This document shows, in pieces, positions 522-13,548 of a stretch of 13,548 nt of DNA. The position numbers and the translations under genes are program-made. Numbering within the stretch: position 1 is the first letter of the stretch; each line of letters begins with the position of its first letter. The notes below the pieces were generated by a model. It saw only the letters and a program-made list of their open reading frames with translations. It ran no database searches and was not told where the DNA came from. This stretch comes from Deltaproteobacteria bacterium (GTDB lineage: Bacteria > Myxococcota > UBA796 > SXON01), in NCBI GenBank assembly GCA_947483545.1, contig CANKNP010000113.1, positions 1 to 13,548 on the forward strand. The letters are read 5' to 3'.

Positions 522-1079
522 CTACCCCTTCTTCTTCGTCGGGGCGAGGAGCATCGAGAGTTGGCGGCCGTCCATCCGAGGCATCTGCTCGACGGTGCTC
601 ACGTCGTGCAACATGTCCGCGAACTTCTTGCATTGATCCTCGCCGATGTCCTTGTGTGCGATCTCCCGGCCACGGAAGCGCACGGTGACCTTGACCTTGT
701 CGCCCTCTTCGAGGAACCCGCGGGCGGCACGCTCTTTCACGGCGAAGTCATGGTCGTCGGTCTTCGGGCGGAGCTTGATCTCCTTGATCTCGACGATCGC
801 CTGGTTCTTCCGGGCAACGGCGTCCCGCTTCTTTTTCTCGTACTTCAGCTTGCCGAAGTCCGTGATGCGGCAGACGGGCGGGCGGGCCATGGGAGCGACC
901 TCGACAAGGTCCAGGCCCTTCTCCCGCGCGAGCGCCATGGCGTCTTCCGTTAGGAACTCGCCGAGCTTTTCCCCGCTGTCGTCGATGACGAGGACGCGAG
1001 GCACACGAATGCGCTCATTGACCCGAGGCTCATTGCGCTCAGGGGCAGAAGGGGGCTGGCCACGTGGGGGACTCCGCAA
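522..1079 (-). CDS. infC: Translation initiation factor IF-3
   Basis: IF-3 binds the 30S subunit, prevents premature 50S joining and checks start-codon/initiator-tRNA pairing. The N-terminal domain is seen at RVNERIRVPRVLVIDDSGEKLG, the lysine-rich linker at FGKLKYEKKKRDAVARKNQ, and the C-terminal domain at EIKLRPKTDDHDF, VTVRFRGREIAH and MLLAPTKKK. At 185 residues it is of normal size. The start appears to be TTG at 1079, because GGAG lies five bases upstream and no in-frame ATG or GTG precedes the conserved domain. E. coli infC famously uses AUU and is autoregulated through it; the AUU here (1080-1078) overlaps the TTG but is out of frame. The usual upstream neighbour thrS is replaced by a tRNA gene. 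The first 18 residues are not conserved, so the exact start is less certain than the identity. Confidence 0.96.
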   Translation of the reverse strand: MRSPPRGQPPSAPERNEPRVNERIRVPRVLVIDDSGEKLGEFLTEDAMALAREKGLDLVEVAPMARPPVCRITDFGKLKYEKKKRDAVARKNQAIVEIKEIKLRPKTDDHDFAVKERAARGFLEEGDKVKVTVRFRGREIAHKDIGEDQCKKFADMLHDVSTVEQMPRMDGRQLSMLLAPTKKKG

Positions 1080-1084
1080 TGCGA

Positions 1085-1088
1085 CTCC
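1085..1088 (-). promoter_or_regulatory. Shine-Dalgarno of infC
   Basis: GGAG on the minus strand, five bases before the TTG at 1079. This is the main reason for accepting the rare start codon. Confidence 0.55.
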
Positions 1089-1106
1089 GGGGTGTGCGAT
1101 GGAAGG

Positions 1107-1120
1107 GGCGGCTCGCCGCC
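1107..1120 (-). other. Short hairpin in the infC leader
   Basis: GGCGG and CCGCC flank a CGAG loop between the tRNA terminator and infC. Only about 50 bases separate the terminator T-run from the infC start, so any infC promoter must lie in or next to this segment, or the operon depends on read-through. I see no convincing -35/-10 pair. Confidence 0.3.
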
Positions 1121-1130
1121 AGGAAACAGG

Positions 1131-1167
1131 AAAAGGCCCGGGAGCGTCCGAAGATCACTCCCGGGCC
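1131..1167 (-). terminator. Intrinsic terminator after tRNA-Val
   Basis: A perfect 10-bp inverted repeat, GGCCCGGGAG (1158-1167, read on the minus strand) with CTCCCGGGCC (1135-1144), encloses a 13-base loop. TTTT then CC follows at 1131-1134. It starts only a few bases after the CCA end of the tRNA, so it should end the tRNA (and any lipB read-through) transcript and separate it from infC. Confidence 0.85.
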
Positions 1168-1171
1168 ATAC

Positions 1172-1246
1172 TGGTTGGCACGGCCGGGATTGAACCGGCG
1201 ACCACCGCCGTGTCAAGGCGGTGCTCTTCCACTGAGCTACGTGCCA
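1172..1246 (-). tRNA. tRNA-Val (anticodon GAC), CCA encoded
   Basis: All four arms fold. The acceptor stem TGGCACG/CGTGCCA has 7 bp; the D arm is GCTC...GAGC; the anticodon stem CCGCC/GGCGG closes the 7-base loop TTGACAC; the T arm is GCCGG-TTCAATC-CCGGC. The anticodon GAC (1212-1214) reads valine GUC, a favoured codon in high-GC genomes. Discriminator A at 1175 is followed by an encoded CCA (1172-1174). The 5' end is preceded by the palindrome GGAGCGCTCC (1247-1256). It lies 37 bases after the lipB stop and may be cotranscribed with it. Confidence 0.96.
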
Positions 1247-1283
1247 GGAGCGCTCCGGGGTTTAGCGAAGGGCTTGGGCGGCG

Positions 1284-1988
1284 TCAAGGGGAATTCGGCG
1301 GACAGAGCGCGAGCCGGAGCGCGGGCCCGAGGCTCTCCCAGGCAACTTGGGGGGTTGGAGCGGCACGACACAGTCGGCGCACCGATGTGGGCGTCACGCC
1401 GGGCATGCCGCAGGGGTCGATCAGATCGAAGCCTCGAAGGCCGTTGCAGAGGTTCAACGCGAAGCCGTGGGTGCTGAACCCCCCGCGGATCCGGAGGCCG
1501 ACAGAGGCGAGCTTCTGGTCGCCGACCCAGATTCCGGGGAGCCCGGCGCGACGGGCGGCGGCTAGCCCAAGGGTGTCGAGCCAGTCGATCAGGCAGCCTT
1601 CAAGGCGATGCACCAGCGCGCGGACGCCGAAGGCGCGGGCGTCCACCACGACGTAGCCGACGAGCTGTCCGGGCTCATGGCACGTGGCGAGTCCGCCCCG
1701 CCGCGTGGACCAGACGGCGTAGCCTGCAGCGGCGGCGGCGGCGCTCCGTACGGCACCGCCTCGCTTTCCGAGGGTCAAGACGGGGCGGTGCTCCAGGCCG
1801 AACAGGGTGGGGGGCCCCCCGGCGACCGCCTGCACCCACGCCGCCTCTTGCAAGGCCAGCCCCTCCGCATAGTCGAGCGTGCCGAGCCAGCGCGTGTTCA
1901 CCGCACCCACGGCCCTGCGGGCGGCCACCTTCTCATCTTCCCCGTAGCCACCGGGAGGCCACGGAGGGCCGTCCCTACGCCCCTGCAA
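1284..1988 (-). CDS. lipB: Octanoyl-[acyl-carrier-protein]:protein N-octanoyltransferase LipB
   Basis: LipB transfers octanoyl from acyl-ACP to the lipoyl-domain lysine of 2-oxo-acid dehydrogenases and GcvH, the first step of lipoate synthesis in the cytoplasm. Visible motifs are HRPVLTLGKRG (67-77), RGG...HEPGQLVGY (97-112), the catalytic Lys159 in GDQKLASVG, THGFALNL (173-180) and the catalytic Cys193 in FDLIDPCGM. Both residues of the Cys/Lys dyad are present. Length (234 from the longest start) is near the family norm. The start is uncertain. TTG at 1988 has GGAG eight bases upstream and overlaps the permease by 14 bases, but the first 29 residues look unconserved. GTG at 1928 or at 1901 (which would give an MNTRWLG start) are good alternatives. 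The motif reads RGGLATCHEPGQ rather than the usual RGGD/KxTxHGPGQ. No lipA is visible. Confidence 0.93.
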   Translation of the reverse strand: MQGRRDGPPWPPGGYGEDEKVAARRAVGAVNTRWLGTLDYAEGLALQEAAWVQAVAGGPPTLFGLEHRPVLTLGKRGGAVRSAAAAAAGYAVWSTRRGGLATCHEPGQLVGYVVVDARAFGVRALVHRLEGCLIDWLDTLGLAAARRAGLPGIWVGDQKLASVGLRIRGGFSTHGFALNLCNGLRGFDLIDPCGMPGVTPTSVRRLCRAAPTPQVAWESLGPALRLALCPPNSP

Positions 1989-3144
1989 AAAACCGGCTCC
2001 GCTTATAGGCTTTCACCAGATTGGCCGCCAGCACCGACAGGGCGGCCGTGATCGGCACCGCGAGCAGGATGCCCCAAATGCCCAGGAGGTTCCCTCCCGC
2101 CACCACAGCGACCATGACCACGAGCGGATGCAGTCCGACCCGCTCCCCCACGATCCGCGGCGTGAGCAGGCTCCCCTCAAGCAGCTGCACGACGACGAAC
2201 GTCGCGATGCAGCCAATCACATGCCAGTCGAAGCCGAACTTGAGGAGCGCGAGGACCGAGGAGACGACCACGCCGACGACGGTGCCGAGGTACGGCACGA
2301 CGAAGAGCGCCCCGGAGAGCATCCCGATGGTAAAGGCAAGGTCGATCCCACTGATCCAAAGCCCGAGGCTGTAGAGCACGCCGAGGATCGCACACAGCGT
2401 GACCTGGCCCTCGATGAACCCCCCGATGCGCCGGTGGATCTCGCTCGCGACCTCGTTCACCAGCGGGCGGTGGCGGCGGGGCACCATGTCCTCCACCCCC
2501 GCGAGGATCCTCGGCCAGTCCGAAGCGAGGTAGAACGCGAACAGCGGGAGCAACGCGAGCTGGACCAGCGATCCGACCAGGGCGAGACCACTCCCGAACA
2601 CGCCTCCCAGCCAACTCTGCGCAGCTTTTCGAGCGTCGGGCGCGTCGATGAACTGCTGGACGTACCCGGGTGCGGCGTCCATGAGCGCCTCGACGTCCAT
2701 CGGCACCTTGATCCCGGCTTGCGCTTCGATCCGCGCGGCCCAAGGCGCGGCCTGATCACGCAGGTTGAGGAGCGCAGGCTTGAGGCGCACCGCGAGCTCG
2801 CCGATCTGGTGCGCGATGGTGGGCGCGACCACGGTGACCAGCAGCACCATCGCCGCCGTACACAGCGCGATGAGCAAGGTGAAGGCTCCGTCGCGGGTGA
2901 GCCCGTGCGCGGCGAGCCACCGGATGGGCCGGTCCATCAGGTAGGCGACCACCGCGCTGGCGAACAGGATGGGGAGGACGCCGCGGGTCGCAAAAAGCAG
3001 GCCCCCGACCACGATCACCCCCACGGCGCCCCATTTGAGCCAGGGGATCCAGGGGTTGCTGCGGACCGCCGGCCGCCGCGGGGGCCGGACCGGCGCTCCG
3101 AGCGAGCTCCGCAACCTGGGAATCCCGGCGGTGCTCTTCCGCAT
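1975..3144 (-). CDS. AI-2E/PerM-family membrane transporter (UPF0118)
   Basis: This 389-residue multipass inner-membrane protein has hydrophobic segments at about 37-53, 55-71, 88-108, 185-207, 247-264, 267-300, 306-325 and 339-375. A soluble stretch (about 115-180) separates the third and fourth, as is usual in this family. The diagnostic C-terminal signature is GERVGLHPLVVMVAVVAGG followed by GILLAVPITA (333-367). Family members have been linked to autoinducer-2 export or Na+/H+ antiport, but the substrate cannot be read from sequence. The basic N-terminus (residues 1-30) is a cytoplasmic tail. The ATG at 3144 directly follows the TAG of the upstream gene (TAGATG), which implies translational coupling; GGA lies about seven bases upstream. 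The 3' end overlaps the longest lipB start. Confidence 0.9.
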   Translation of the reverse strand: MRKSTAGIPRLRSSLGAPVRPPRRPAVRSNPWIPWLKWGAVGVIVVGGLLFATRGVLPILFASAVVAYLMDRPIRWLAAHGLTRDGAFTLLIALCTAAMVLLVTVVAPTIAHQIGELAVRLKPALLNLRDQAAPWAARIEAQAGIKVPMDVEALMDAAPGYVQQFIDAPDARKAAQSWLGGVFGSGLALVGSLVQLALLPLFAFYLASDWPRILAGVEDMVPRRHRPLVNEVASEIHRRIGGFIEGQVTLCAILGVLYSLGLWISGIDLAFTIGMLSGALFVVPYLGTVVGVVVSSVLALLKFGFDWHVIGCIATFVVVQLLEGSLLTPRIVGERVGLHPLVVMVAVVAGGNLLGIWGILLAVPITAALSVLAANLVKAYKRSRFFAGA

Positions 3145-3933
3145 CTACGGATCCATCACGATGACGACGGTACCCTGGGCGAGGAAACCCGCCCCCGCAA
3201 CCGCCGCCGCGAGGGCGACCTGCCCCGGCCCATCCAAGAGCACGTTCACCTCGTCCACGACCGAGGCGGCCCGAACGATGAGCGGCTGTTCGCCCGCGCG
3301 ACGGACCGCGAGCGGATCCGCCGGGTCACTCACGTAGATCACGAAGGGCCTCTGCGATGCGGCGAAGGAGGTCATCGACGCCCCGCCGTACAGAATCCCG
3401 CTGGCGCCGTGCAACTCAGGGGAGACCGCTGGCTCCAGGCGGAGCCCTCGGGCGTCCACGATGAGCCCGGTGATGGGGACGCCCGCAGGCGAGGATCGGT
3501 CGACGCCGACCGCAACGCGCGAGAGCGCGGGGCGGAGCCAGGGGTGGATCGCGAGGCAGACATCGACCTCGACGCGGCCGGATGTGTAGTAGCGGGCCTC
3601 GTTGACCTCCCACAACGACACGTTGGCGTCGAGCTTGTCGGCCACTGCGAGCTCCGAAGCCATCAGGTCCCCCGTCGTCTGACTGGCGCCAAAGCGGACC
3701 TCCCGCGCGAGGTCGAGCATCCGGGGCCCGAGCGTGGATCGCGCGCGCCCCTCCAAGGCCTCGTAGCCGGCCATCGAGCCGCTGCTGTTGGCTTCGGCAG
3801 CCTGGGTACAAAGGTCGAGCGTCGTCCAGTTGACCGTACCCTTGGACAGCGCGCGCACGATCGGGTCGAACGCATGTGCGGGCCGGGCCGCAGCGAGGAG
3901 GAGAAAACCGAGCAGGATCCGGGACGCTGACAT
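3145..3933 (-). CDS. Secreted LPP20/FlgP-like protein of unknown function
   Basis: This 262-residue protein has a clear signal peptide (MSASRILLGFLLLAAARPAHA, predicted cleavage before FDP) and no lipobox. From memory of the family, several elements match LPP20/FlgP-like proteins of Deltaproteobacteria: GTVNWTT near the N-terminus (32-38), a central helical region, ARYYTSGRVEVDV (113-125), GLIVDARGLRLEPAVSPEL (156-174), a GILYGGAS element (179-186), EQPLIVRAA (215-223) and a closing FLAQGTVVIVMD. Some relatives take part in outer-membrane or flagellar basal-disc assembly, but no flagellar gene is nearby and I assign no function. Cys42 and Cys126 could form a disulfide. It is coupled to the permease that follows (TAGATG). 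The ATG at 3933 has a weak Shine-Dalgarno; the hydrophobic signal peptide fixes the start. A structured repeat element lies 28 bases upstream. Confidence 0.62.
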   Translation of the reverse strand: MSASRILLGFLLLAAARPAHAFDPIVRALSKGTVNWTTLDLCTQAAEANSSGSMAGYEALEGRARSTLGPRMLDLAREVRFGASQTTGDLMASELAVADKLDANVSLWEVNEARYYTSGRVEVDVCLAIHPWLRPALSRVAVGVDRSSPAGVPITGLIVDARGLRLEPAVSPELHGASGILYGGASMTSFAASQRPFVIYVSDPADPLAVRRAGEQPLIVRAASVVDEVNVLLDGPGQVALAAAVAGAGFLAQGTVVIVMDP

Positions 3934-4047: not shown

Positions 4048-4794
4048 CTACCCCGGGATGCCAATCTCCCAGGTGGTCCCGGTCCCCGCGGGGGTTTCGA
4101 CCAGCGCCAGGGTCCCGCCGAAGCTGGCAGCCAGATCGCGGCTGAGCATCAGCCCGAGGCCCGTGCCCTCGGCCTTGGTCGTGCGGAACGGCTCGAACAG
4201 GCGCGCCCGGATCGCGGGCTCCAGGCCCGGCCCGTTGTCTTGAACGCGCACGCGCACGGGGCCGGCCAGCACCGAGATCTGAAGCCGCGCGTCCGGCCGG
4301 CGCAAGAGGGCGTCGATGGCGTTCTGACCCAGGTTGACGATCACCTGCTGGACCGCGAGCACGGGTGCGCGCACCATGACCGCCTTCTCCCCCACCAACT
4401 CCAGCGAGACCCCCCCCGCCCGCGCCCGGTGCTCCAAGATGACCAGCGCGGCTCGGATCGCCGTCCAGACATCAAAGGGCACCGCCTCGCCCGCCGGGCG
4501 CCGAGAGAGCTCGGAATAGCCGCGGAGCAGGGCGTCCAACGTCTGGAGCTGGGCCAACACCCCATCCAGATGCCCGGCGACCTGTTCCGGCCGTGCGGCG
4601 GCCTGGGCGAGCTGCGCCATCGCACGGGCCGCGAAGAGCGGCTGCCGGAGCTCGTGCACCAACGAGGCCGAGAGAACGCCGACCTCCGCGAGCCGGCGCG
4701 TCTCCTGGGTGGAGAGCCGCCGGACCCGGAGGCGGGGCGCCCCGGGGGCTATGGCGTCCGCCCGCGCTGGGAGACCACCACCGTCTTCGCGCAT
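4048..4794 (-). CDS. Soluble sensor-less histidine kinase (HisKA + HATPase_c)
   Basis: This 248-residue kinase has no membrane segment and no recognisable sensor domain, only about 30 residues before the dimerisation helix. The HisKA phospho-acceptor is His47 in LVHELRQPL. The ATP-binding domain is complete: N-box VNLGQNAIDAL (153-163), G1 box DNGPGLE (186-192), F-box LFEPFRTTK (199-207) and G2 box GTGLGL (210-215), ending GTGTTWEIGIP. It should autophosphorylate and hand the phosphate to a response regulator, but none is encoded here. The ATG at 4794 has a strong Shine-Dalgarno (GAGGGGGA, spacing three). It lies inside the end of the upstream lipoprotein gene (46-base overlap), so translation is probably coupled. 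It is the last gene of the five-gene operon and may act with the membrane kinase encoded first. Confidence 0.92.
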   Translation of the reverse strand: MREDGGGLPARADAIAPGAPRLRVRRLSTQETRRLAEVGVLSASLVHELRQPLFAARAMAQLAQAAARPEQVAGHLDGVLAQLQTLDALLRGYSELSRRPAGEAVPFDVWTAIRAALVILEHRARAGGVSLELVGEKAVMVRAPVLAVQQVIVNLGQNAIDALLRRPDARLQISVLAGPVRVRVQDNGPGLEPAIRARLFEPFRTTKAEGTGLGLMLSRDLAASFGGTLALVETPAGTGTTWEIGIPG

Positions 4795-7700
4795 GCTTCC
4801 CCCTCATTTCCGCTGACGTCAACCGCTGAGACCACGACCTCATAGCTGTCTTCGGCGACGATCCGACCGTCCTCGCCCCGCGCATCCCAAGACCAGTCCG
4901 TGCGAGCCCCAGCCACGCGGGTGGTCAACAGCCGATCTCCCTCAGGGGAGGTGACCGCCAACGACCACCACGACGGCGCCGTGGTCGCGGACAGCGTCAT
5001 ATCGACCACGTCGGCCTCAGCGCCGTCTCCATCGTCGCCGTCTGGGCGGATGGCGCTCGCCCCAAAGCTGCAGGCCGCGCCGAGATCTCCGACAGTCGAG
5101 GGGACATCGCCGAAAGTGGACGTCCAAGACGCCGAGTTGCCCGACCAGTCGCCGGAGAGGCGATTCCCGGCAACGTCGCGTACGTTGGTGCTCAAGGTCA
5201 GCGTGTAGGTCCCCGCAGCAGGGTCCAGCGTGTCGGTCGGGGTGACGGTCAACGTCCGGCCGTCGCTGGACACCGCGAGCGCGGTCGTGATCGCACCGTC
5301 TGGCCCGGTGAGGGAGACCGCGAGCGCCGTAAAGTTCGCCGCGAACATGGGCTCCGAGAACGCCACCGTGACCTCGGACACCGCGTCCGTCCAGGTGCCG
5401 ACGGGGGTGACGGAGACCACGACGGGTCGGACGCTATCCCCGGTCACCACCACGTCGGCTGCGCCGAACGCCTCCCCGCTTGCCCCCGCCACCGCCACCG
5501 AAGCCGTGGTCGCATAGCCTGAGTCGAACGTCACATCGAAGGTGCCCGCCCCCGCGCCATCCAACGTGAGCGAGAGCCCCGAACCCGTGCTCAGCGGGCC
5601 CGCCACCACGCCCAGATCGCTCCACACGAACACCGTCCCAGCGCTCGCAACGTCGCCCGCGCAATCGGTCGCCGCGACGGTCACCGCCGTCGTCGCGCCG
5701 CTGGCAACCGTCGTAGCGGCCGGGGTCACGACCAACGGACCCACTGGGCTACCGTCGTTGGCGCCGACCCAGCCCACCGCGCTGTCCGACGAGGCACAGC
5801 CCTCGATGTCCGCGACCACGACGGTGACGCGCTCGCCGGCCGACTCCGTGAAGGTGACCTCAGTCGGCGCGGAGAGCGAGCGTACGTCCTCGGCCGGCCC
5901 CTCCAGGTGCCAGATCGCGATCGGCGCATCTCCCGGGACCGTGCCAGACGTGTCGACGACGAAGGTCAATTCCTCCGCCACCAAGCACCCCACGACCTCG
6001 TCGGCGCCGTCGAGCAGGAGATCGGCGACCGGGCCGGCCGGACAGGCGAAGTCCAGCACGTCGAGCGGCTCGCTGAGCCCCGACATCGCATCGTCCTCGG
6101 CGAGCACCTGAAGCTCAAAGCCCACATCCTCACAGACAAGGTCCACAAGCGCGACGCCGAGCGAGAAGTCGCTGGTCGCCTGCGAGGCGCACCCGGACAG
6201 AGACACCGTCACTGGCCCGAGGTAGACCCCGTTCGCGTTTTCGAAGGCGTCCACCGCAGTGACCTCGACCGGGACGCCGTCTGCGATGTCCGCCCAGGCC
6301 GGAGCCAGCACCCGCAGATCAACGACTTCGCCGGCCAGCACCTCGATCCCGGCGGAGGCGCCCAGCGCGATCCCGCCTGCGCTCGCGAGGATCGCGTCCG
6401 TCCCGGCGACCGTCAACTGCACAGTGGCGCCTGCGGAGCCGGACCCGTCGAGGGTCAACGACATCGCGCCCATCCCTCCGAGCAGGTCCGAAAGCGTCAC
6501 GGTCGAACCGCTGACGGGGGTGGTGTAGGCGTTCCCATAGGCGTCGAAGCCGAAGACGGTCACGCCGAACGCATCGCCGGCGGTCACGGAGCTGACGGAC
6601 GCCGTCACATCGGCTGCGGCGAGGTCGGAGTTCGTGACCAGGAAAGGCGCCGAGACCCCGCTCAACCCCTGGATCTCCACGCTCAGGACATCCGCGGGGT
6701 GCGCGGCGGTGATGACGCAGAGGAAGTTCCCCTCCGCGCTGGGCTCGCAGAGCAGCGTGCCTGTGTCATCGACCAACACGGCTTCTTCCGGCAAAAACGT
6801 GATCGCGTTGTCCCACTCGTCGAGCAATTGGACGACGACGGAGAACGGCACACCCGCCTCTCCAACAGCGACGCCTGGCGTGACCGTGACCGCCACCGCG
6901 ACGTTCGGGAGCACCTCGATCGCGTTGGACACGCCCGTGCGCCCCATCTCGTCGGTCGCGGTGATGGTGATGCCGCTCCCGGCCCGAACGGTCGTCGCCG
7001 TGCAGACCGCCTGGCCGGTGAAAAAGCTGCCGCACGCCTGTTCGCCGACCCCAGTGTCGCTGTCGAGCCCGCCCACGCTGTCCTTGAGCGTGATCGTCGC
7101 GACGTGGTCCTCCACAAGGTTGTCGAAGCCGTCCACGGCCCCGACCACGACCGCCAGCACGCCGGTCCCGGCGACGACCGACGAAGGCACCGCGGTCAAG
7201 TCGTAGCCTTGCATCTCGGCAGCGCGCACCTCAAAAGCTTCGCTGTCCGCGGCCGAGACCCCGACGCCGATCGCGTGGAGGTGGTTTGCCGGGCACGCTG
7301 TCGTAAGCGTGATCGGGTAGGGGCCTGCCGAGAGCAGGTCGATGAGCTGGTGGAGGTCGCCACAGTCGTCATCTTCATAGACGTAGACCTGCAGCCCCGT
7401 CGCGTCGATGACGTTGCCTGAATCGTCCACGACCTCGATGCCGAGCGCGATCTCCTCGCCAGCGACGCTGCTGAACGCCTCCGAGGGGAGCGAGAGGACG
7501 ACGTGGTCGGGCAAGCCGGGGGAGAAGCTCAAAAGCGTCGTCGCCGGCGTGATGAACGAATCGGAGACGGCCGACAACGTGAGCGTGAGATCCTGCGCGA
7601 TCGTGGACCGGAGCAGGAGCGGGGCCGTGCCGTCCTGGTGCAGCTTGCCCTGCACGCCCACCCCGTCGGTCAGCGGCGACTGCTCGTCCAAGAGGCCATC

Positions 7701-8258
7701 CCCGAACTCCAGCCCGGCCGCACCCTCGGCAGACGTGGCCCGCACCTCGACGAGGAGCGGCTCCGCGACGCTGCCCCCTTCGGGATCTTCGAGCCGCATG
7801 CCGAGGCTCGCGATCTCGCTCACGTCGTAGCCGACACGCTCCACGTCGAAGACCAAGTGGTCCGCGCGGGTCTCCGTCACCCGGAAGCCCTGGGAGAGCG
7901 TGGTCTCGATCCCGGCGGGATCGACCAGCCGCACATCGTACGTGCCCGGCTCCACCCCAGCGGGCACTTCGGCGACCAGCGTGGATGTGTTCACGAACTC
8001 GACGCCGTCCAACGCCGTCGGCGTGTCGGTCTCCAAATAGACCTGGAACGCGCTGTTGAACTGCGCCTCTTCGCGCTGATCGCCGACGACGAGGCTCGGA
8101 AAGAGCCGCTCTCCGATCACGGTGACGTCGGTCACCTCCCCCGTCCAGCCCCAGCCCGGCGAGATGGTGCGCAGCTCAGGCGCAGGAGCGACGGGGGCAC
8201 AGCCCACCGCACACCCGAGGCCGAGCCAGACCACCCACGAAAACCGAACCTCGTTCAT
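4749..8258 (-). CDS. Large multi-domain Ig-like lipoprotein
   Basis: This 1169-residue exported protein has a hydrophobic N-terminus and lipobox AVGC, with lipidated Cys20. An IPT/TIG-like domain (about 27-126; TISPGWGWTG, YDVRLVDPAG) comes first. Several Ig-like domains follow to about 735, most with a Big_1/filamin-like D-x-x-x-N signature (DDSGNVID, DGFDNLVE, DEWDNAIT, DAYGNAYT, DAFENANG). A PKD-like region (about 750-835), another beta domain (845-925), an SbsA-type Big_5 domain (942-1050; FSEPMFAANF, DVAGNRLSGDW) and a FlgD-like Ig module (about 1085-1165; WSWDARGEDG) complete it. After the lipid Cys there are 14 cysteines, mostly in close pairs, suggesting disulfides outside the cytoplasm. 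The ATG at 8258 lies two bases after the upstream stop (TGACCATG) with a weak Shine-Dalgarno, so coupling is likely. Adhesin, scaffold or barrel-partner roles are all possible. Confidence 0.8.
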   Translation of the reverse strand: MNEVRFSWVVWLGLGCAVGCAPVAPAPELRTISPGWGWTGEVTDVTVIGERLFPSLVVGDQREEAQFNSAFQVYLETDTPTALDGVEFVNTSTLVAEVPAGVEPGTYDVRLVDPAGIETTLSQGFRVTETRADHLVFDVERVGYDVSEIASLGMRLEDPEGGSVAEPLLVEVRATSAEGAAGLEFGDGLLDEQSPLTDGVGVQGKLHQDGTAPLLLRSTIAQDLTLTLSAVSDSFITPATTLLSFSPGLPDHVVLSLPSEAFSSVAGEEIALGIEVVDDSGNVIDATGLQVYVYEDDDCGDLHQLIDLLSAGPYPITLTTACPANHLHAIGVGVSAADSEAFEVRAAEMQGYDLTAVPSSVVAGTGVLAVVVGAVDGFDNLVEDHVATITLKDSVGGLDSDTGVGEQACGSFFTGQAVCTATTVRAGSGITITATDEMGRTGVSNAIEVLPNVAVAVTVTPGVAVGEAGVPFSVVVQLLDEWDNAITFLPEEAVLVDDTGTLLCEPSAEGNFLCVITAAHPADVLSVEIQGLSGVSAPFLVTNSDLAAADVTASVSSVTAGDAFGVTVFGFDAYGNAYTTPVSGSTVTLSDLLGGMGAMSLTLDGSGSAGATVQLTVAGTDAILASAGGIALGASAGIEVLAGEVVDLRVLAPAWADIADGVPVEVTAVDAFENANGVYLGPVTVSLSGCASQATSDFSLGVALVDLVCEDVGFELQVLAEDDAMSGLSEPLDVLDFACPAGPVADLLLDGADEVVGCLVAEELTFVVDTSGTVPGDAPIAIWHLEGPAEDVRSLSAPTEVTFTESAGERVTVVVADIEGCASSDSAVGWVGANDGSPVGPLVVTPAATTVASGATTAVTVAATDCAGDVASAGTVFVWSDLGVVAGPLSTGSGLSLTLDGAGAGTFDVTFDSGYATTASVAVAGASGEAFGAADVVVTGDSVRPVVVSVTPVGTWTDAVSEVTVAFSEPMFAANFTALAVSLTGPDGAITTALAVSSDGRTLTVTPTDTLDPAAGTYTLTLSTNVRDVAGNRLSGDWSGNSASWTSTFGDVPSTVGDLGAACSFGASAIRPDGDDGDGAEADVVDMTLSATTAPSWWSLAVTSPEGDRLLTTRVAGARTDWSWDARGEDGRIVAEDSYEVVVSAVDVSGNEGEACAKTVVVSQRGRTP

Positions 8259-8260
8259 GG

Positions 8261-10741
8261 TCAGTACAGTACCCGATAACCGGCGGACAGGGAGGCCCCG
8301 CCAACGCCGCCCTCAAAGCTGACGGTCCCGTTTGGCGCGTTGAGGAACAGGTAGCGGCCCTCCACGTAGAGCTCCGAGATGCCTGCCCGCCAGCCTCCCC
8401 CCGCATGGAGCTGCAGCCCGGGCGGCGCCAAGCCGGAACCCACCAGCCCCCGCACGCCGTCAAAGTCGGCGGTGAGGCCATAGGGCGCGATGACCCCCGA
8501 CACGCCCACCTCCAGGGCGCGATTGCCAGAGCGACTCTCTGCGACGACGCCCAGCGTGACCGGGATGAAGCGCGCCGCCACCTCGACAGAGAGCCCCGAG
8601 ACGGGGTCAACCAGCTCCGATCGTAAGCTGTGGGTGGTGACGCTCGCCCGCAAACGGAGCAAGTCCGAGACGGTGTCCGGCAAGAGCGGCACGCGGTTTT
8701 CCAGCGTGACGGAGAACGCGGGCGAGGAGATGGCCCCGAAGTTGGTCAGCCAGCCCGCGTCCAGCCCAAGGCTGCCCGCGACGCGGCGAGGGACGAGCTC
8801 CAGGTCGGTGTCCACCGTGCTTGAGGCCGTCGCCGCCGTGATGCGCACCGTTCGCGTCTGCGTGCCCGCTGGGGGCGTGTAAATCGCCTCCACGCTGCCA
8901 TCCTCGCGAACGGCGCCCTGCACGATGGTGCCGAGCGTCGCCGTGATCGTGACGGGCTCGTCCCGCACCGGGGCGCCGACACCGTCCAACATCCGGACGG
9001 TGACGAGCGCACGGTCGCCCGTGCCGGTGATCAGGGGCCGCGGGCTCACATCAAGCTGCACGCGGCGGACGCGGCCAGACTGAATCGGGAGCACCAGCGA
9101 AGCGGAGAGGTCCGGCGCTTGCAAGCTCGGGAGTCGGGCAGGCCCCGCTGCGAAGATCGCAGTGGCCCGCACGACCCCGTTGGCGGCCGCCCGGCCCAGC
9201 CAGAGCGCCCCGGGGGGGCGAGGGACGACCGCAGCGCCCCAGCCGTTGACCCCGGTGAGGGCCGACCACGCCGCGCCTTCCACGTCCCCCCGGATCGAGA
9301 CCCCGGAGAGGGGGCGCCCCAGCGCATCGAGCGCGCGGGCCCGCACCTCGATCCCGCCCGACACCGGCGCCGCGACGAAGTCCACGTCCCAGACCGCGCC
9401 GCTCCCGGGGGGCGCTCTCCACTCCGCGGTCAACGTGTCCTTCCCGAACGCCACAGCCGCGCCGCCACGGTAATCCGCACGCAGCGCGCCGCCCTCCATG
9501 GTCGTTTCGAGGTGCCCCGCGAGCGCGCTGAGCGTGAGGCCCTCGGGCGAGAGCCGGTCGCCGTGCGCGTCCAACAGCAGGGCTTGAACCTGGGCATCTG
9601 GGAAGTCCGTGGAGACGGCGTCCGGGTACGCCCGAATCTCCACGCGCTCCGGCTGCACCTCGGCGAGCGGGATGCGAAAGCGCGCTGCGGCGTCGCCGAC
9701 GGCGCAATCCACCCGCAGATCGAAGGCACTGGAGAGGGTCTCGGGGGGGAGCGTCGCGTCCACAAGCCAGGTTCCGGCGCCGGCTTGCCGGGCCTCGAGC
9801 GCCTCGCCAACCGGTCCCCTGCAGGTCGGGGCGTCCCCGACCCACGGGGCCCCCGAGGCCGCCCAGACGCCGAGCGTCAGTCGCGCCCCCGCGAGTCGGC
9901 CCGCAGCCAGATCCACCCCCACCAGGACCGGCGACAAGTTGGCGGGGAGCGGGCTCTGCACACGCTGCGTGTTGCCTAGGTCGTCCGATGCGCTGATATC
10001 GAAGCGTGTCTCCCCCGGAAGGACGTCGAAGGTCACGTGCGCGACGCCCTGGACATCGGCCTCAAACGGGCCGTACGACCGCCGACCCACCTTGATCAGG
10101 ACCGTACTGCCGACGCCGACGTTGAGCGCTGCCGACTGTCTCGCCCGCAGGCGGACCACCCCGAAGACCGTCGCCCCGCCCGGCGCCCCGCGGTCCGCGA
10201 TCCCCACAGCGATGATGCGCGCTCCGCGGTCCGGCCCCGGGGTAACGGTCACCCGTGCCTCCCGGGCATCCACCTCCAGATCGAGGATGGCGCCCTCCGA
10301 AGCCCGCACGACCAGCTCTGCCGCCGTGACAGCGGCCAGCAGCGGGAAGTGGAGCACCACGGAATCTCCAACGGCCTCCTCGACCGTCGGCGCGGCCCCC
10401 AGCCGGCCCCTGGGCATCGCAGCAGGGACCACGCTGATCGGCATCCAGGCACCCCCGTCCACGCGGACGCGCAGCGTGTCTCGTTCGCCCGAGGGCGTGT
10501 ACGGCCAGCGCCAGCACCCCATCCCCGAGGGCGCTCCGAGGCCCACCTTGCCGGTCTCAGCGGCCAGCTCGACCTGGGCGTACTCCCGGGGCCGCCCGTC
10601 GGTCGCGACCGCGACCTCGACTTCCGTCGGCGCCCCCGCGATCGGCTCTCCGTCTGGGAAGTAGAGCTTGACCTGCGGCTCAGACGCGCGCGCTCCGGGC
10701 GTCACGAGCGCAAAATACAGGGCGAGCAGGCAACCGAGCAC
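8261..10741 (-). CDS. Secreted Ig-like protein with probable C-terminal outer-membrane beta-barrel
   Basis: The signal peptide is LGCLLALYFALVTPGARA, with mature SEPQVKLYF. Beta-rich domains of Ig-like character cover about residues 20-560. A Big_1/invasin-like domain follows (about 560-652; VQLDVSPRPLITGTGDRALVTV, GAPVRDEPVTITA, VREDGSVEAIYTPPAGT). The last 170 residues (656-826) alternate polar and hydrophobic residues with short turns and end AGYRVLY. A C-terminal aromatic after alternating residues is the usual BAM recognition signal of outer-membrane barrels; length suggests about eight strands. I chose GTG at 10741 (826 residues) because it lies 15 bases after the FecR stop with AAAGGG upstream and gives a compact, though uncharged, signal peptide. 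GTG at 10813 (850 residues) would overlap FecR by 55 bases and give a basic N-region. It precedes the lipoprotein by two bases. Confidence 0.78.
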   Translation of the reverse strand: MLGCLLALYFALVTPGARASEPQVKLYFPDGEPIAGAPTEVEVAVATDGRPREYAQVELAAETGKVGLGAPSGMGCWRWPYTPSGERDTLRVRVDGGAWMPISVVPAAMPRGRLGAAPTVEEAVGDSVVLHFPLLAAVTAAELVVRASEGAILDLEVDAREARVTVTPGPDRGARIIAVGIADRGAPGGATVFGVVRLRARQSAALNVGVGSTVLIKVGRRSYGPFEADVQGVAHVTFDVLPGETRFDISASDDLGNTQRVQSPLPANLSPVLVGVDLAAGRLAGARLTLGVWAASGAPWVGDAPTCRGPVGEALEARQAGAGTWLVDATLPPETLSSAFDLRVDCAVGDAAARFRIPLAEVQPERVEIRAYPDAVSTDFPDAQVQALLLDAHGDRLSPEGLTLSALAGHLETTMEGGALRADYRGGAAVAFGKDTLTAEWRAPPGSGAVWDVDFVAAPVSGGIEVRARALDALGRPLSGVSIRGDVEGAAWSALTGVNGWGAAVVPRPPGALWLGRAAANGVVRATAIFAAGPARLPSLQAPDLSASLVLPIQSGRVRRVQLDVSPRPLITGTGDRALVTVRMLDGVGAPVRDEPVTITATLGTIVQGAVREDGSVEAIYTPPAGTQTRTVRITAATASSTVDTDLELVPRRVAGSLGLDAGWLTNFGAISSPAFSVTLENRVPLLPDTVSDLLRLRASVTTHSLRSELVDPVSGLSVEVAARFIPVTLGVVAESRSGNRALEVGVSGVIAPYGLTADFDGVRGLVGSGLAPPGLQLHAGGGWRAGISELYVEGRYLFLNAPNGTVSFEGGVGGASLSAGYRVLY

Positions 10742-10758
10742 GCGGCCCTTTACCGCGG

Positions 10759-11598
10759 CTACTCGATCCGCACCCCAATCGCCGGCGGCGTCGAGTCGCG
10801 GGCGACCCGCCACTCCGCCTTCGCCACCTGGCCGAACAGGTTGACAGCCCGCACCACGACAGCGTTCTCTCCCTCGCCTAACGCCACCTCGATCACGAAG
10901 GCGCCCGCGCGATCGGCGCGGGTGGTCGCCGTGCCGGCGGAGGTGCTGGCGGTCACCTTCGCGCTCGGCTCGGTCGTCCCGGTCAGGCGAACCTTCGGCG
11001 TGGACGTGCGGTCCTGGGCGGGCCAGGCCATTTGCAAAAGCAGGGCGTCGGACACCGGCATTTGCATCGGGCTGCCGTCGCTCGGGATCACGGTCCGATC
11101 CCCGGCGGCGACCGCCGCCCCATCGACATCGACCGCGCCCCGGCTGCTCTGCACGGCTACCCCGTCCGGGCTCCGGACGATCTCGAAGTCGGCGTCGTCC
11201 GCCCGGATCGCTCGCCCGGCCGCGTCGATGCCAAGCCTGGGGCCTCCGGGCCGTACGGTCGCCTGAACGCGGCCGTCTTCCAGGGAGAGCCGAACACCGG
11301 TCGGGTCCACGCTCGTGACCTGCACGCTCGTATTGGCCTGCACGGTCACGCGGCTCTGAGTCCCGAAGGCGAGCACCGCGCTCCCGTCGGCGCCGGAGAC
11401 GAGCCGATCAGAGGCGTGGATGGGCGCGCCAGCCGTGGCGGCCCCCCTCTGTCCTCCAGATTCCACCTGTACATCTCCGCGAACCTCGGAGAGGACCACC
11501 GCCGCCGCCGCTGAGTCAGAGAACAAGAGCTGATACCCGACCCACCCAAGCACGGCGATCACCGCGAGGGCGAGCAACGCCCGCAGTTCGGCCGTCAC
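10759..11598 (-). CDS. Single-pass membrane FecR-domain protein with Ig-like C-terminus
   Basis: This 279-residue protein has one N-terminal membrane helix (about 5-26, LRALLALAVIAVLGWVGYQLLF). A FecR domain follows at about 34-160, with SEVRGDVQV, LVSGADGSAVLAFGTQSRVTV, LSLEDGRVQATV and VQSSRGAVDVDG. A glucodextranase-B/Big-like module (about 202-265; RLTGTTEPSAKVTAS, GAFVIEVALGEGENAVVVRA) ends it. Classical FecR relays outer-membrane signals to an ECF sigma factor through a cytoplasmic tail. Here only about five residues are cytoplasmic and no sigma factor is present, so a structural or ligand-binding role in the periplasm is likelier. The GTG start at 11598 overlaps the kinase stop (GTGA) and has GAGGTG five bases upstream. 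A longer in-frame extension to 11727 lies inside the kinase gene, lacks conserved features, and is rejected. Confidence 0.86.
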   Translation of the reverse strand: MTAELRALLALAVIAVLGWVGYQLLFSDSAAAAVVLSEVRGDVQVESGGQRGAATAGAPIHASDRLVSGADGSAVLAFGTQSRVTVQANTSVQVTSVDPTGVRLSLEDGRVQATVRPGGPRLGIDAAGRAIRADDADFEIVRSPDGVAVQSSRGAVDVDGAAVAAGDRTVIPSDGSPMQMPVSDALLLQMAWPAQDRTSTPKVRLTGTTEPSAKVTASTSAGTATTRADRAGAFVIEVALGEGENAVVVRAVNLFGQVAKAEWRVARDSTPPAIGVRIE

Positions 11599-13370
11599 GC
11601 CTTCACCTCGGGAAATCGCACCACCCAGCGAGCCACAGCGACGCCGCGCTCGGGCTCCTCGACGATGGCGCCATGCTCCTCGAAGACCTTTCGGGCCGCC
11701 CAGAAGCCGAGCGCCGCCGCCCGCCAATCGTCCTGGGAGGCCTGGACGGGCGTGACGCTGACCAGCAGCTCCCTGCCGACGCTCCGGATGCCGATCGTCG
11801 CGCCCTCGGCGGCGAGCATCCGCACCGAAGCGACCAGCTGCCCGAGGGCGCGGCCAAGCGCGACCTGTTCGCCACGCACGTGCAAGTTCCCGACGACGTG
11901 ATCGACAGTGAGCTGACGCTCTCGCATGGCCCCCGCTATGAGCACCAGCACGTCACCAAGCAGCAGGTGCACGTCCACGACCTCCCGCTCCCCGCCGCGG
12001 TCGGTGGACGCCGCCTGCGTGAACCGCGAGAGACGCCCCACGATCTCCGTGCAGCGCAGCGCCTCTCGCTCCGCCGCTTCGAGCAGCGGGTCACTCCCCG
12101 AACGCGCTTTGACGACCTGGAGGAGGCCGACGACGCCCGCGAGCGGGTTGTTCAGCTCGTGCGTAAGACCTGCGGACAGCTCCGCGACCGCCGCGAGCTG
12201 CCGCGACTGAACCAAGCTCGCCTGGGCGGCCCGCAGCTCGGCGGTGCGGCGCTCCACACGGGCCTGAAGCTCCCGGTTGAAGGCGCCAATCTCCGCGTTT
12301 TTCTTGGCCAGGTCGTCCTGGTTCTGTTGGAGCGACCCAGCCATGCGGTTGAACGCGCTGGCCAACTCCCCCAGCTCATCCGTCCGTCGCAGGTCCACGC
12401 GGGAGGCCAGATCGCCAGAGCCCATGCGGGCCGATGCATCCCGCAGCGCCCCGACCGGCTCGGTGATCGACCGGGAGAGCAGCGCCCCGAACACCATGGC
12501 GGCGAGGAGCGTGATGCCAGCGATGTAGCCTGTGCGCAAGCGGATCTCCTGCGCGGCGGCGTCGAGCGACTGCACGGGGGTCGCGAGCGCGATGACCAGC
12601 TCCTGGCCGGGGACCCTCGCGAGCGCGCCCAACATCTGCCGGCCGTTCGGGGCGACGTACCGCAAGTCCGACGAGACCGTCCCGAGCAACGGCCGAAACG
12701 AGTCCGCATCGACGATCCCGGCGGGCCCAGCGGAGATGAGCTCCTCGCCCTTCATGGAAAAGAGCACGATCTCCCGGTCCTGAGCGGCCGCAGCGCGCAT
12801 CCGGGAGGCAATTGCGGTGAGGGAGATCTCGACCCCCAGCCGGGCGCCATCCCCCCAGGGCGAGAAGAAAACCCCGGTGATCGTGGCCTCGTGGCCGTCC
12901 GACGCCGGCGAGGGCGCACCCCAGGCCGTGCCGTCGGGGGCTTCTGTCGGGATCGCGCGACGGATCGCGTCGAGCCGGCTCGGATCCACGTTCGCGTGCC
13001 CGGCGAGGCGCACCTCGTCCGTGGGGGACTGAAACACCGGAGGCACAAGGTCCTCCCCGCTGGCATTGAGCAGAAAGGTAGCGTCAATCTCAGGAAACAG
13101 CCGGTACGTGGAGATCAGGAACGCTTGTTGGACCTGCGGCGATGCCTCCCCCAGCTCGAAATTCGCGACCTGCATCCGAAGCACACGCTCGGTGTCCGTG
13201 AGCTGGCGGGCAATGACCGAGGCCAGCATCTCCGCCGTTTGAACCTGGAACTCCACGCTTGAGCTCACCAGCCAGTCTCGGGCAGCGCCGCTGGCGGCGA
13301 GCGCCAACCCCGCGAGGGGCACGACGCCGACCACTGCGAGGATGAGCCCGAGCCGGAGGCCGAGCCTCAT
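11595..13370 (-). CDS. Membrane sensor histidine kinase with degenerate ATP-binding domain
   Basis: This 591-residue sensor has TM1 at about 6-28, a periplasmic Cache-like region (about 35-275; STYRLFPEIDATFLLNASGED, FFSPWGDGARLGVEISL), TM2 at about 280-298, and HAMP at 299-350 (ITEPVGALRDASARMGSGDLASRVDLRRTDELGELASAFNRMA). A coiled coil (350-392) and a HisKA domain with His404 in GLTHELNNPLAGV follow. The C-terminal region (about 465-588) keeps the size and final strands of an HATPase_c domain (GFWAARKVFEEHGAIVEEPERGVAVARWVVRFP). However, the N-box asparagines, the DxGxG G1 box and the GxGxG G2 box are all missing. Autophosphorylation by this chain alone is therefore doubtful. The ATG at 13370 begins the hydrophobic segment; Shine-Dalgarno is weak. 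It heads the operon and its stop overlaps the FecR GTG. There is no response regulator in the window. Confidence 0.88.
   Translation of the reverse strand: MRLGLRLGLILAVVGVVPLAGLALAASGAARDWLVSSSVEFQVQTAEMLASVIARQLTDTERVLRMQVANFELGEASPQVQQAFLISTYRLFPEIDATFLLNASGEDLVPPVFQSPTDEVRLAGHANVDPSRLDAIRRAIPTEAPDGTAWGAPSPASDGHEATITGVFFSPWGDGARLGVEISLTAIASRMRAAAAQDREIVLFSMKGEELISAGPAGIVDADSFRPLLGTVSSDLRYVAPNGRQMLGALARVPGQELVIALATPVQSLDAAAQEIRLRTGYIAGITLLAAMVFGALLSRSITEPVGALRDASARMGSGDLASRVDLRRTDELGELASAFNRMAGSLQQNQDDLAKKNAEIGAFNRELQARVERRTAELRAAQASLVQSRQLAAVAELSAGLTHELNNPLAGVVGLLQVVKARSGSDPLLEAAEREALRCTEIVGRLSRFTQAASTDRGGEREVVDVHLLLGDVLVLIAGAMRERQLTVDHVVGNLHVRGEQVALGRALGQLVASVRMLAAEGATIGIRSVGRELLVSVTPVQASQDDWRAAALGFWAARKVFEEHGAIVEEPERGVAVARWVVRFPEVKA
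11604..11609 (-). promoter_or_regulatory. Shine-Dalgarno that sets the FecR-gene start
   Basis: GAGGTG on the minus strand, five bases before the GTG at 11598 and inside the last codons of the kinase gene. Together with the GTGA stop/start overlap it fixes the FecR-protein start and predicts translational coupling. Confidence 0.75.
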
Positions 13371-13372
13371 CT

Positions 13373-13437
13373 AGTGTCTTCGCCGGGGGTTTTCTGGGGA
13401 TGGCTGGCTTCCGAATCCGCCCTGCTTTGTGCGGGGC
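13373..13437 (-). repeat. Structured repeat element, copy B (upstream of the kinase operon)
   Basis: This 65-base counterpart of the element at 3962-4025 has a hairpin GCGGGGC/GCCCTGC with a 5-base loop (13419-13437). It is followed on the minus strand by CGGATTCGGAAGCCAGC and a tail with CCAGA, CGGC and GACACT. It ends two bases before the ATG at 13370, closer to the start codon than copy A. Both copies precede the first gene of a minus-strand gene group. A GGGG/CCCC stem-loop (13433-13444) can compete with the hairpin. Confidence 0.55.
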
Positions 13438-13467
13438 AAGCCCCCCACGCCCCCCGCTCGCCGGGGT

Positions 13468-13515
13468 GCGCTCGGGTACGAGCGCATACCCGTCCTCGGC
13501 GGGAGTACCCGCCGA
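13468..13515. other. Cluster of hairpins upstream of the kinase operon
   Basis: Three inverted repeats are visible. GCGCTC/GAGCGC (13468-13485, loop GGGTAC) and CGGGTA/TACCCG (13473-13492, loop of eight) share bases and cannot form together. TCGGCGGG/CCCGCCGA (13496-13515) is a perfect 8-bp stem with loop AGTA. They may be operator-like palindromes, a leader structure or a REP-like intergenic repeat. No promoter could be assigned between here and the window end. Confidence 0.45.
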
Positions 13516-13548
13516 CGCCGGGACCCGGCTCGGGTGCGGTTGGGCACC

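Follow-up and report, generated by a model that had tools for sequence, protein, structure and literature searches.

A candidate trans-envelope signalling operon with a conserved histidine pseudokinase in Myxococcota

The described system closest in its working to the operon reported here is the Rcs pathway, in which a pair of kinases is controlled by RcsF, a lipoprotein of the outer membrane, by OmpA and by an inner-membrane protein, and in which the size of the periplasm matters (PMC7553776, PMC5736177, PMC13317618). The operon lies on the minus strand of a 13,548-nucleotide stretch of DNA, referred to below as the window (contig CANKNP010000113.1 of assembly GCA_947483545.1, from a Deltaproteobacteria bacterium assigned to the Myxococcota), and encodes a histidine kinase-like membrane protein (HK1), a FecR-domain protein, a protein with an array of immunoglobulin (Ig)-like domains and a C-terminal beta-barrel (the barrel protein), an Ig-like lipoprotein and a small histidine kinase (HK2); in relatives, a further kinase, HK0, is encoded directly before HK1. 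The likeness to Rcs lies in the kinds of parts combined in one trans-envelope pathway, namely a lipoprotein and an OmpA-type barrel in the outer membrane, a protein of the inner membrane and two kinase-like proteins (PMC7553776, PMC5736177, PMC13317618), whereas the present genes form a single operon, the lipoprotein counts 1169 amino acids and the barrel carries an Ig array of its own. Furthermore, no Pfam match to the domains of RcsF, IgaA, RcsC or RcsD was found in the window proteins (E-values up to 0.1) or in their relatives (E up to 0.05). Similarly, the FecA-FecR-FecI system has an inner-membrane FecR-domain protein beside the gene of an outer-membrane barrel, but in the present operon kinases stand in place of the sigma factor and the barrel is of OmpA size; no Pfam match to a TonB-dependent receptor, plug or STN domain was present in the barrel protein, nor to an anti-sigma domain in the FecR-domain protein. 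To our knowledge, the RetS-GacS pair, unlike the HK1 operon, comprises neither a receiver-first kinase nor outer-membrane components, and we know of no link between the Caulobacter protein DivL and an outer-membrane barrel. The operon is interpreted here as a putative trans-envelope signalling unit, Rcs-like in its working and without homology to Rcs, with a probability of about 0.5, its function and partners being deduced from sequences and structure models.

By its sequence, HK1 is a conserved, membrane-anchored histidine pseudokinase. Pfam retrieved HAMP and HisKA domains (HisKA, E 4.3e-09) and no HATPase_c domain, and PF02518 was absent from the precomputed annotation of all 83 nearest HK1 homologues (83/83, P0033-P0115). 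The structure model and its fold matches indicate a dCACHE-like periplasmic sensor and a fold resembling that of a catalytic and ATP-binding (CA) domain, and hydropathy placed a membrane segment in 65/65 HK1 proteins, as against 2/59 HK0 and 1/47 HK2 proteins. In the degenerate HK1 proteins, the acceptor histidine of a canonical HisKA domain was kept in 59/59, while the ATP-binding boxes were not, the N-box asparagine being present in 0/59 and the G1 aspartate in 1/59, and the F-box position being deleted in 56/59. Besides these, 13 HK1 relatives possessed an intact ATPase domain (N-box asparagine in 13/13), seven of which belonged to a FecR-barrel locus of their own. A CA profile scored 66 to 95 bits in six of these seven intact loci, the seventh (L139) being partial in that run and containing the motifs in its full frame, and 13 to 20 bits in four degenerate loci (L105, L107, L113 and L114), with weak scores in P0111 and P0113 as well. 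Hence, where the preliminary description of the window spoke of two histidine kinases, this holds for HK2, whose catalytic sites are intact, and not for HK1, the lack of a working ATPase domain having been overlooked. As a separate observation, one HK1 relative (L140:4001-5800) showed the reverse of the loss in the main clade, namely intact ATPase boxes with a glutamine for the acceptor histidine, its immediate upstream neighbour being a kinase that we read from the sequence as receiver-PAS-like; this concerns a single sequence.

The motif around the acceptor histidine of HK1, H-E-L-N-N, has a glutamate at H+1 in 56/59 (aspartate in three) and an asparagine at H+4 in 59/59 degenerate proteins. 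The full retention of both the histidine and the H+4 asparagine suggests that the chemistry of the histidine is still used. As the corresponding motifs of HK0 (HEISSP) and HK2 (HELRQP) differ, and as HK1 alone carries the ExxN signature, which we take to be the phosphatase motif of HisKA proteins, HK1 might act mainly as a phosphatase or brake on the receiver of HK0, which the envelope complex would open or close. This alternative is improbable, for HELNNP is the usual form in active kinases of the same type too, the 13 intact relatives among them, and does not single out a phosphatase function.

The proposed source of the missing ATPase activity is HK0, which corresponds to a frame of 390-530 amino acids directly before HK1 in relatives and to which Pfam assigned a receiver-HisKA-HATPase_c architecture in two examples. 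Its catalytic sites are intact (acceptor histidine in 55/55, receiver D60 in 55/55, N289 and GTGLGL). Across a sample of 377 genomes from one phylum, probably the Myxococcota, HK1 was found in 68 (E < 1e-80, after removal of four of 72 genomes with hits of about 1e-51 to 1e-53 that covered the kinase half alone) and HK0 in 61, with one copy each (E up to 1e-90). HK0 was thereby present in 60 of the 61 genomes with a degenerate HK1, in none of the seven with an intact HK1 and in one of 309 others, the exceptions being G010, with a degenerate HK1 at a contig end and no HK0, and G241, with HK0 and, on a contig of 3.7 kb, barrel and FecR genes. Because the genomes are related, a Fisher value for this association is not a probability. 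At the level of loci, HK0 was situated at most 500 bases from HK1 on the same strand in 56/61 degenerate-HK1 loci; three of the remaining five loci end too early, and L095 and L134 lack HK0 at that place, yet it occurs on other contigs of the same genomes (G196 and G264). This count leaves out L144, an HK1 fragment, and L001, the HK1 of which was read from L141. Next to HK0, a divergently oriented gene coding for a small lipoprotein-like protein with a repeated, EF-hand-like DxDxDG motif (L002:5449-6183, L007:5247-5864) was noticed in 54 scanned loci.

The gene order of the operon is conserved far beyond chance, being found again in dozens of genomes that have diverged from one another. A scan of contigs with an 11-row barrel alignment yielded 15 loci, among which the order HK1-FecR-barrel-Ig lipoprotein-HK2 recurred down to about 30% identity; an alignment of 25 barrel proteins contained no stretch conserved enough. 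In relatives, the complete order is HK0-HK1-FecR-barrel-Ig lipoprotein-HK2. An orthologue of the barrel protein was found in 61/377 genomes (E < 1e-58), 22 of 83 genomes having been dropped for weaker hits, mostly to a longer paralogue or to fragments, and 58/377 genomes contained both HK1 and the barrel gene. According to coordinates, the distance between the two in these 58 genomes was 854 to 2326 bases in 42 and 9.8 kb on one strand in one, and they were on different contigs in 15; reading of the contigs added two linked genomes (G138 and G082). Contrary to the general lack of linkage that the preliminary description had named as an argument against a functional unit, HK1 and barrel genes are thus adjacent in 44/58 genomes, and the FecR gene follows HK1 directly in 57/57 degenerate-HK1 loci in which the downstream sequence runs to 600 bases or more. 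Eleven of the 58 genomes looked split, with HK1 away from the barrel gene: in seven (G177, G123, G077, G119, G321, G224 and G311), other sequence extends for 4.2 kb or more on each side, and in four (G009, G200, G196 and G108) a single side is informative or the flanks are shorter; linkage was undecided in two (G181 and G264). A split clade (11 rows, Shimodaira-Hasegawa-like approximate likelihood-ratio support 99) carries HK0-HK1-FecR at one place and barrel-lipoprotein-HK2, in part followed by a tetratricopeptide repeat (TPR) gene, at another. The barrel gene is present in 10/11 genomes of this clade, and G237 lacks it and has an HK2-level hit. The retention of both halves after the split fits a shared function, without proving it. 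Independently of this clade, HK1-FecR and barrel-lipoprotein-HK2 lie about 9.8 kb apart in G001 (L141 and L001), with several other genes in between. Two further observations concern the data set: many barrel-bearing genomes encode a second, longer protein (open frame of about 1000-1100 amino acids) that matches the barrel model at about 166-297 and 550-640 and represents a paralogous family, and the record titles of L005 and L009 (Bifidobacterium breve and Klebsiella pneumoniae) look wrong, their operons grouping with other metagenome bins.

The products between the two kinases of the window have features of envelope proteins. The FecR-domain protein (PF04773, E 6.5e-07) carries a transmembrane helix at its N-terminus and an Ig-like stretch at its C-terminus, and 56/61 of its homologues have an N-terminal hydrophobic segment. 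The barrel protein consists of a signal sequence, an Ig-like array (residues about 44-675, counted from the start at 10813) and the barrel (residues 676-850); its AlphaFold model has a predicted local distance difference test score of 87.8, and the last residue is aromatic in 48/52 homologues. Fold matches assign the barrel to the OmpA-type, eight-stranded fold; as an OmpA match in Pfam is absent, the fold is shared and membership of the OmpA family is not claimed. The Ig lipoprotein shows a weak TIG match and a Big_5 match in the window, with FlgD_ig matches in relatives, and its N-terminal AVGC resembles a lipobox by eye, a strict lipobox pattern occurring in 34/46 homologues. HK2 is a soluble HisKA-HATPase_c kinase with H47, N158 and G210/G212/G214 each conserved in 45/45 and N, G1 and G2 boxes overall in 43 to 45/45 sequences. 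Among the 31 HK1-linked loci that allowed a check, 28 have the HK2 gene next after that of the lipoprotein. As a phylum-wide marker HK2 is weak, 369/377 genomes giving a hit at E 1e-35, so that a strict score cut, regarded as soft, was used.

Since the Ig folds of the barrel protein resemble those of invasin, FdeC, InvD and InvE, and since Big_1 (below the Pfam cut-off, in the barrel protein) and Big_5 domains occur, the operon could also serve surface adhesion or envelope assembly; the kinases would then merely control the expression of the barrel and Ig proteins, which would be the product of the operon and not part of a sensor. The array also gave fold matches to complement and to Ig proteins of eukaryotes, which were taken for a general likeness among Ig folds and disregarded. 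In the inverse autotransporters of the invasin/intimin type, the barrel is N-terminal and 12-stranded. Here, the order is reversed, the Ig array preceding a C-terminal OmpA-type barrel of about 175 residues, and because this barrel is C-terminal, OmpA-sized and not of the inverse-autotransporter type, the array should be periplasmic. In addition, the FecR gene lies between HK1 and the barrel gene, and HK1 and FecR stay joined even where the barrel half has moved. An adhesin operon thus has only a small chance of being the correct explanation.

In the preferred reading, that of a trans-envelope signalling unit, the Ig array would hang into the periplasm, because both ends of an OmpA-type barrel are situated there. 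The array and the lipoprotein would pass the state of the outer membrane or periplasm to the FecR-domain protein and the dCACHE sensor of HK1. As HK1 appears incapable of self-phosphorylation, the ATPase would be provided in trans by HK0, perhaps also by HK2. HK1 would then either be phosphorylated in trans or gate HK0 and HK2; it may gate the flow of phosphate to or from the HK0 receiver, which would be the first phospho-acceptor downstream. A precedent is found in Corynebacterium glutamicum, in which a laboratory-evolved ChrS mutant devoid of the CA domain is reported to exert its effect by forming a heterodimer with HrrS, so that there, too, the CA domain is lost and the effect needs another kinase and heterodimers (PMC9491836). 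The ChrS case is a single laboratory mutation, whereas the degenerate form of HK1 has been kept through a whole clade. A second precedent is the dependence of Rcs signalling on the size of the periplasm (PMC5736177). A more specific version, which is doubtful at present, is a one-operon periplasm gauge, in which the Ig array would serve as a rod of fixed length from the outer membrane, its reach to the FecR-domain protein and the dCACHE domain of HK1 reporting on envelope spacing or integrity, with HK0 and HK2 phosphorylating HK1 in trans and the HK0 receiver reading the result; the kinase reaction would thereby be divided among three proteins, with a ruler in the outer membrane controlling it.

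Several points weigh against the proposed signalling unit. First, on the tree (quick method, midpoint root), the association of HK0 with HK1 and the degeneration of HK1 together represent roughly a single evolutionary change, with a support of 53 for this one-change result concerning intact and degenerate HK1 and of 99 for a 58-row degenerate clade, outside of which L114 was placed without support; because of this single change, the HK0/HK1 counts are not independent trials. Second, other receiver-type or hybrid kinases adjoin the intact HK1 in L138, L139 and L140. Third, blastn and tblastn revealed no similarity to HK0 in the 178 bases before HK1 in the window, the HK0 query matching HK2 instead, and this segment is also without similarity to the DNA of relatives. 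The missing HK0 may be an artefact of the contig end, which is close by (the contig counts 13682 bases), or a real rearrangement. Fourth, HK2 does not adjoin the lipoprotein gene in three of the 31 testable loci and passes the soft orthologue cut in 48/61 genomes. Fifth, no gene for an output regulator common to relatives, beyond the genes listed, was found near the operon, the flanks being partly annotated. Lastly, the pseudokinase DivL works with neither kinase nor phosphatase activity (PMC4211667). By analogy, HK1 might be an allosteric switch that passes no phosphate and of which the degenerate CA domain and the dimerization and histidine phosphotransfer domain bind either the receiver of HK0 or HK0/HK2 dimers, switching their activity upon a periplasmic signal. 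Such a switch is a real but rather unlikely possibility, as DivL has lost its histidine (Tyr550), whereas HK1 keeps the histidine in 59/59 and the H+4 asparagine in 59/59 proteins and has lost the ATP-binding residues.

The gene layout of the window (Table 1) reproduces the five tightly packed minus-strand genes of the preliminary description, with a 4-base GTGA overlap between HK1 and FecR, a 2-base gap between barrel and lipoprotein and a 46-base overlap between lipoprotein and HK2; the gap between FecR and barrel genes, previously given as 15 bases, counts 17 with the GTG start at 10741. Pfam agreed with the domain names proposed earlier, its matches being HAMP and HisKA in HK1, HisKA and HATPase_c in HK2, PF04773 and Big_5, as did the structure model with the predicted beta-barrel. 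The idea of a five-gene unit stands as far as its conservation is concerned; it was incomplete, since relatives possess HK0 upstream, beyond the window. A distribution of the products across inner membrane, periplasm and outer membrane is plausible, and that the envelope proteins are sensed and the kinases report is a direction that we infer. Downstream on the same strand (522-3933), genes for a 262-amino-acid protein, an AI-2E family transporter, LipB, tRNA-Val and IF3 were found, the last assigned from our own sequence reading and synteny in relatives. The gene order of the coding part of this region is kept in L001-L004, and other clades carry a TPR gene there.

Table 1. Positions in the window of the operon genes and of selected sites and domains
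Feature	Position	Strand	Remarks
HK1 (HAMP kinase)	13370-11595	minus	open reading frame, Pfam
FecR-domain protein	11598-10759	minus	GTG start at 11598
Barrel protein	10741-8261, or longer start 10813	minus	with the longer start, overlaps the FecR gene
Ig lipoprotein	8258-4749	minus	1169 amino acids
HK2, small kinase	4794-4048	minus	
Site of HK0 in relatives	13371-13548	minus	178 bases; blastn and tblastn comparison
HK1 His404 codon, conserved phospho-acceptor	12159..12161	minus	H in 59/59 degenerate HK1
HK1 residues 460-591, CA-like fold without N-box Asn, F-box or ATP lid	11598..11993	minus	
C-terminal beta-barrel domain, about 175 residues	8264..8788	minus	residues 676-850 counted from 10813

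A search of the open-licence literature brought up no paper on these genes as a set, and the nearly constant pairing of HK1 with a second kinase, HK0, suggests an undescribed envelope-monitoring system. If this is true, HK1 would be a natural, clade-wide case of a membrane sensor that keeps its acceptor histidine after having lost ATP binding. As the likely ATPase partner of HK1 is fused to the same operon, trans-phosphorylation between the kinases would be directly testable. Furthermore, the operon would represent a self-contained signalling unit from outer membrane to cytoplasm outside the Enterobacteria, and hence a second system for sensing the state or width of the periplasm.
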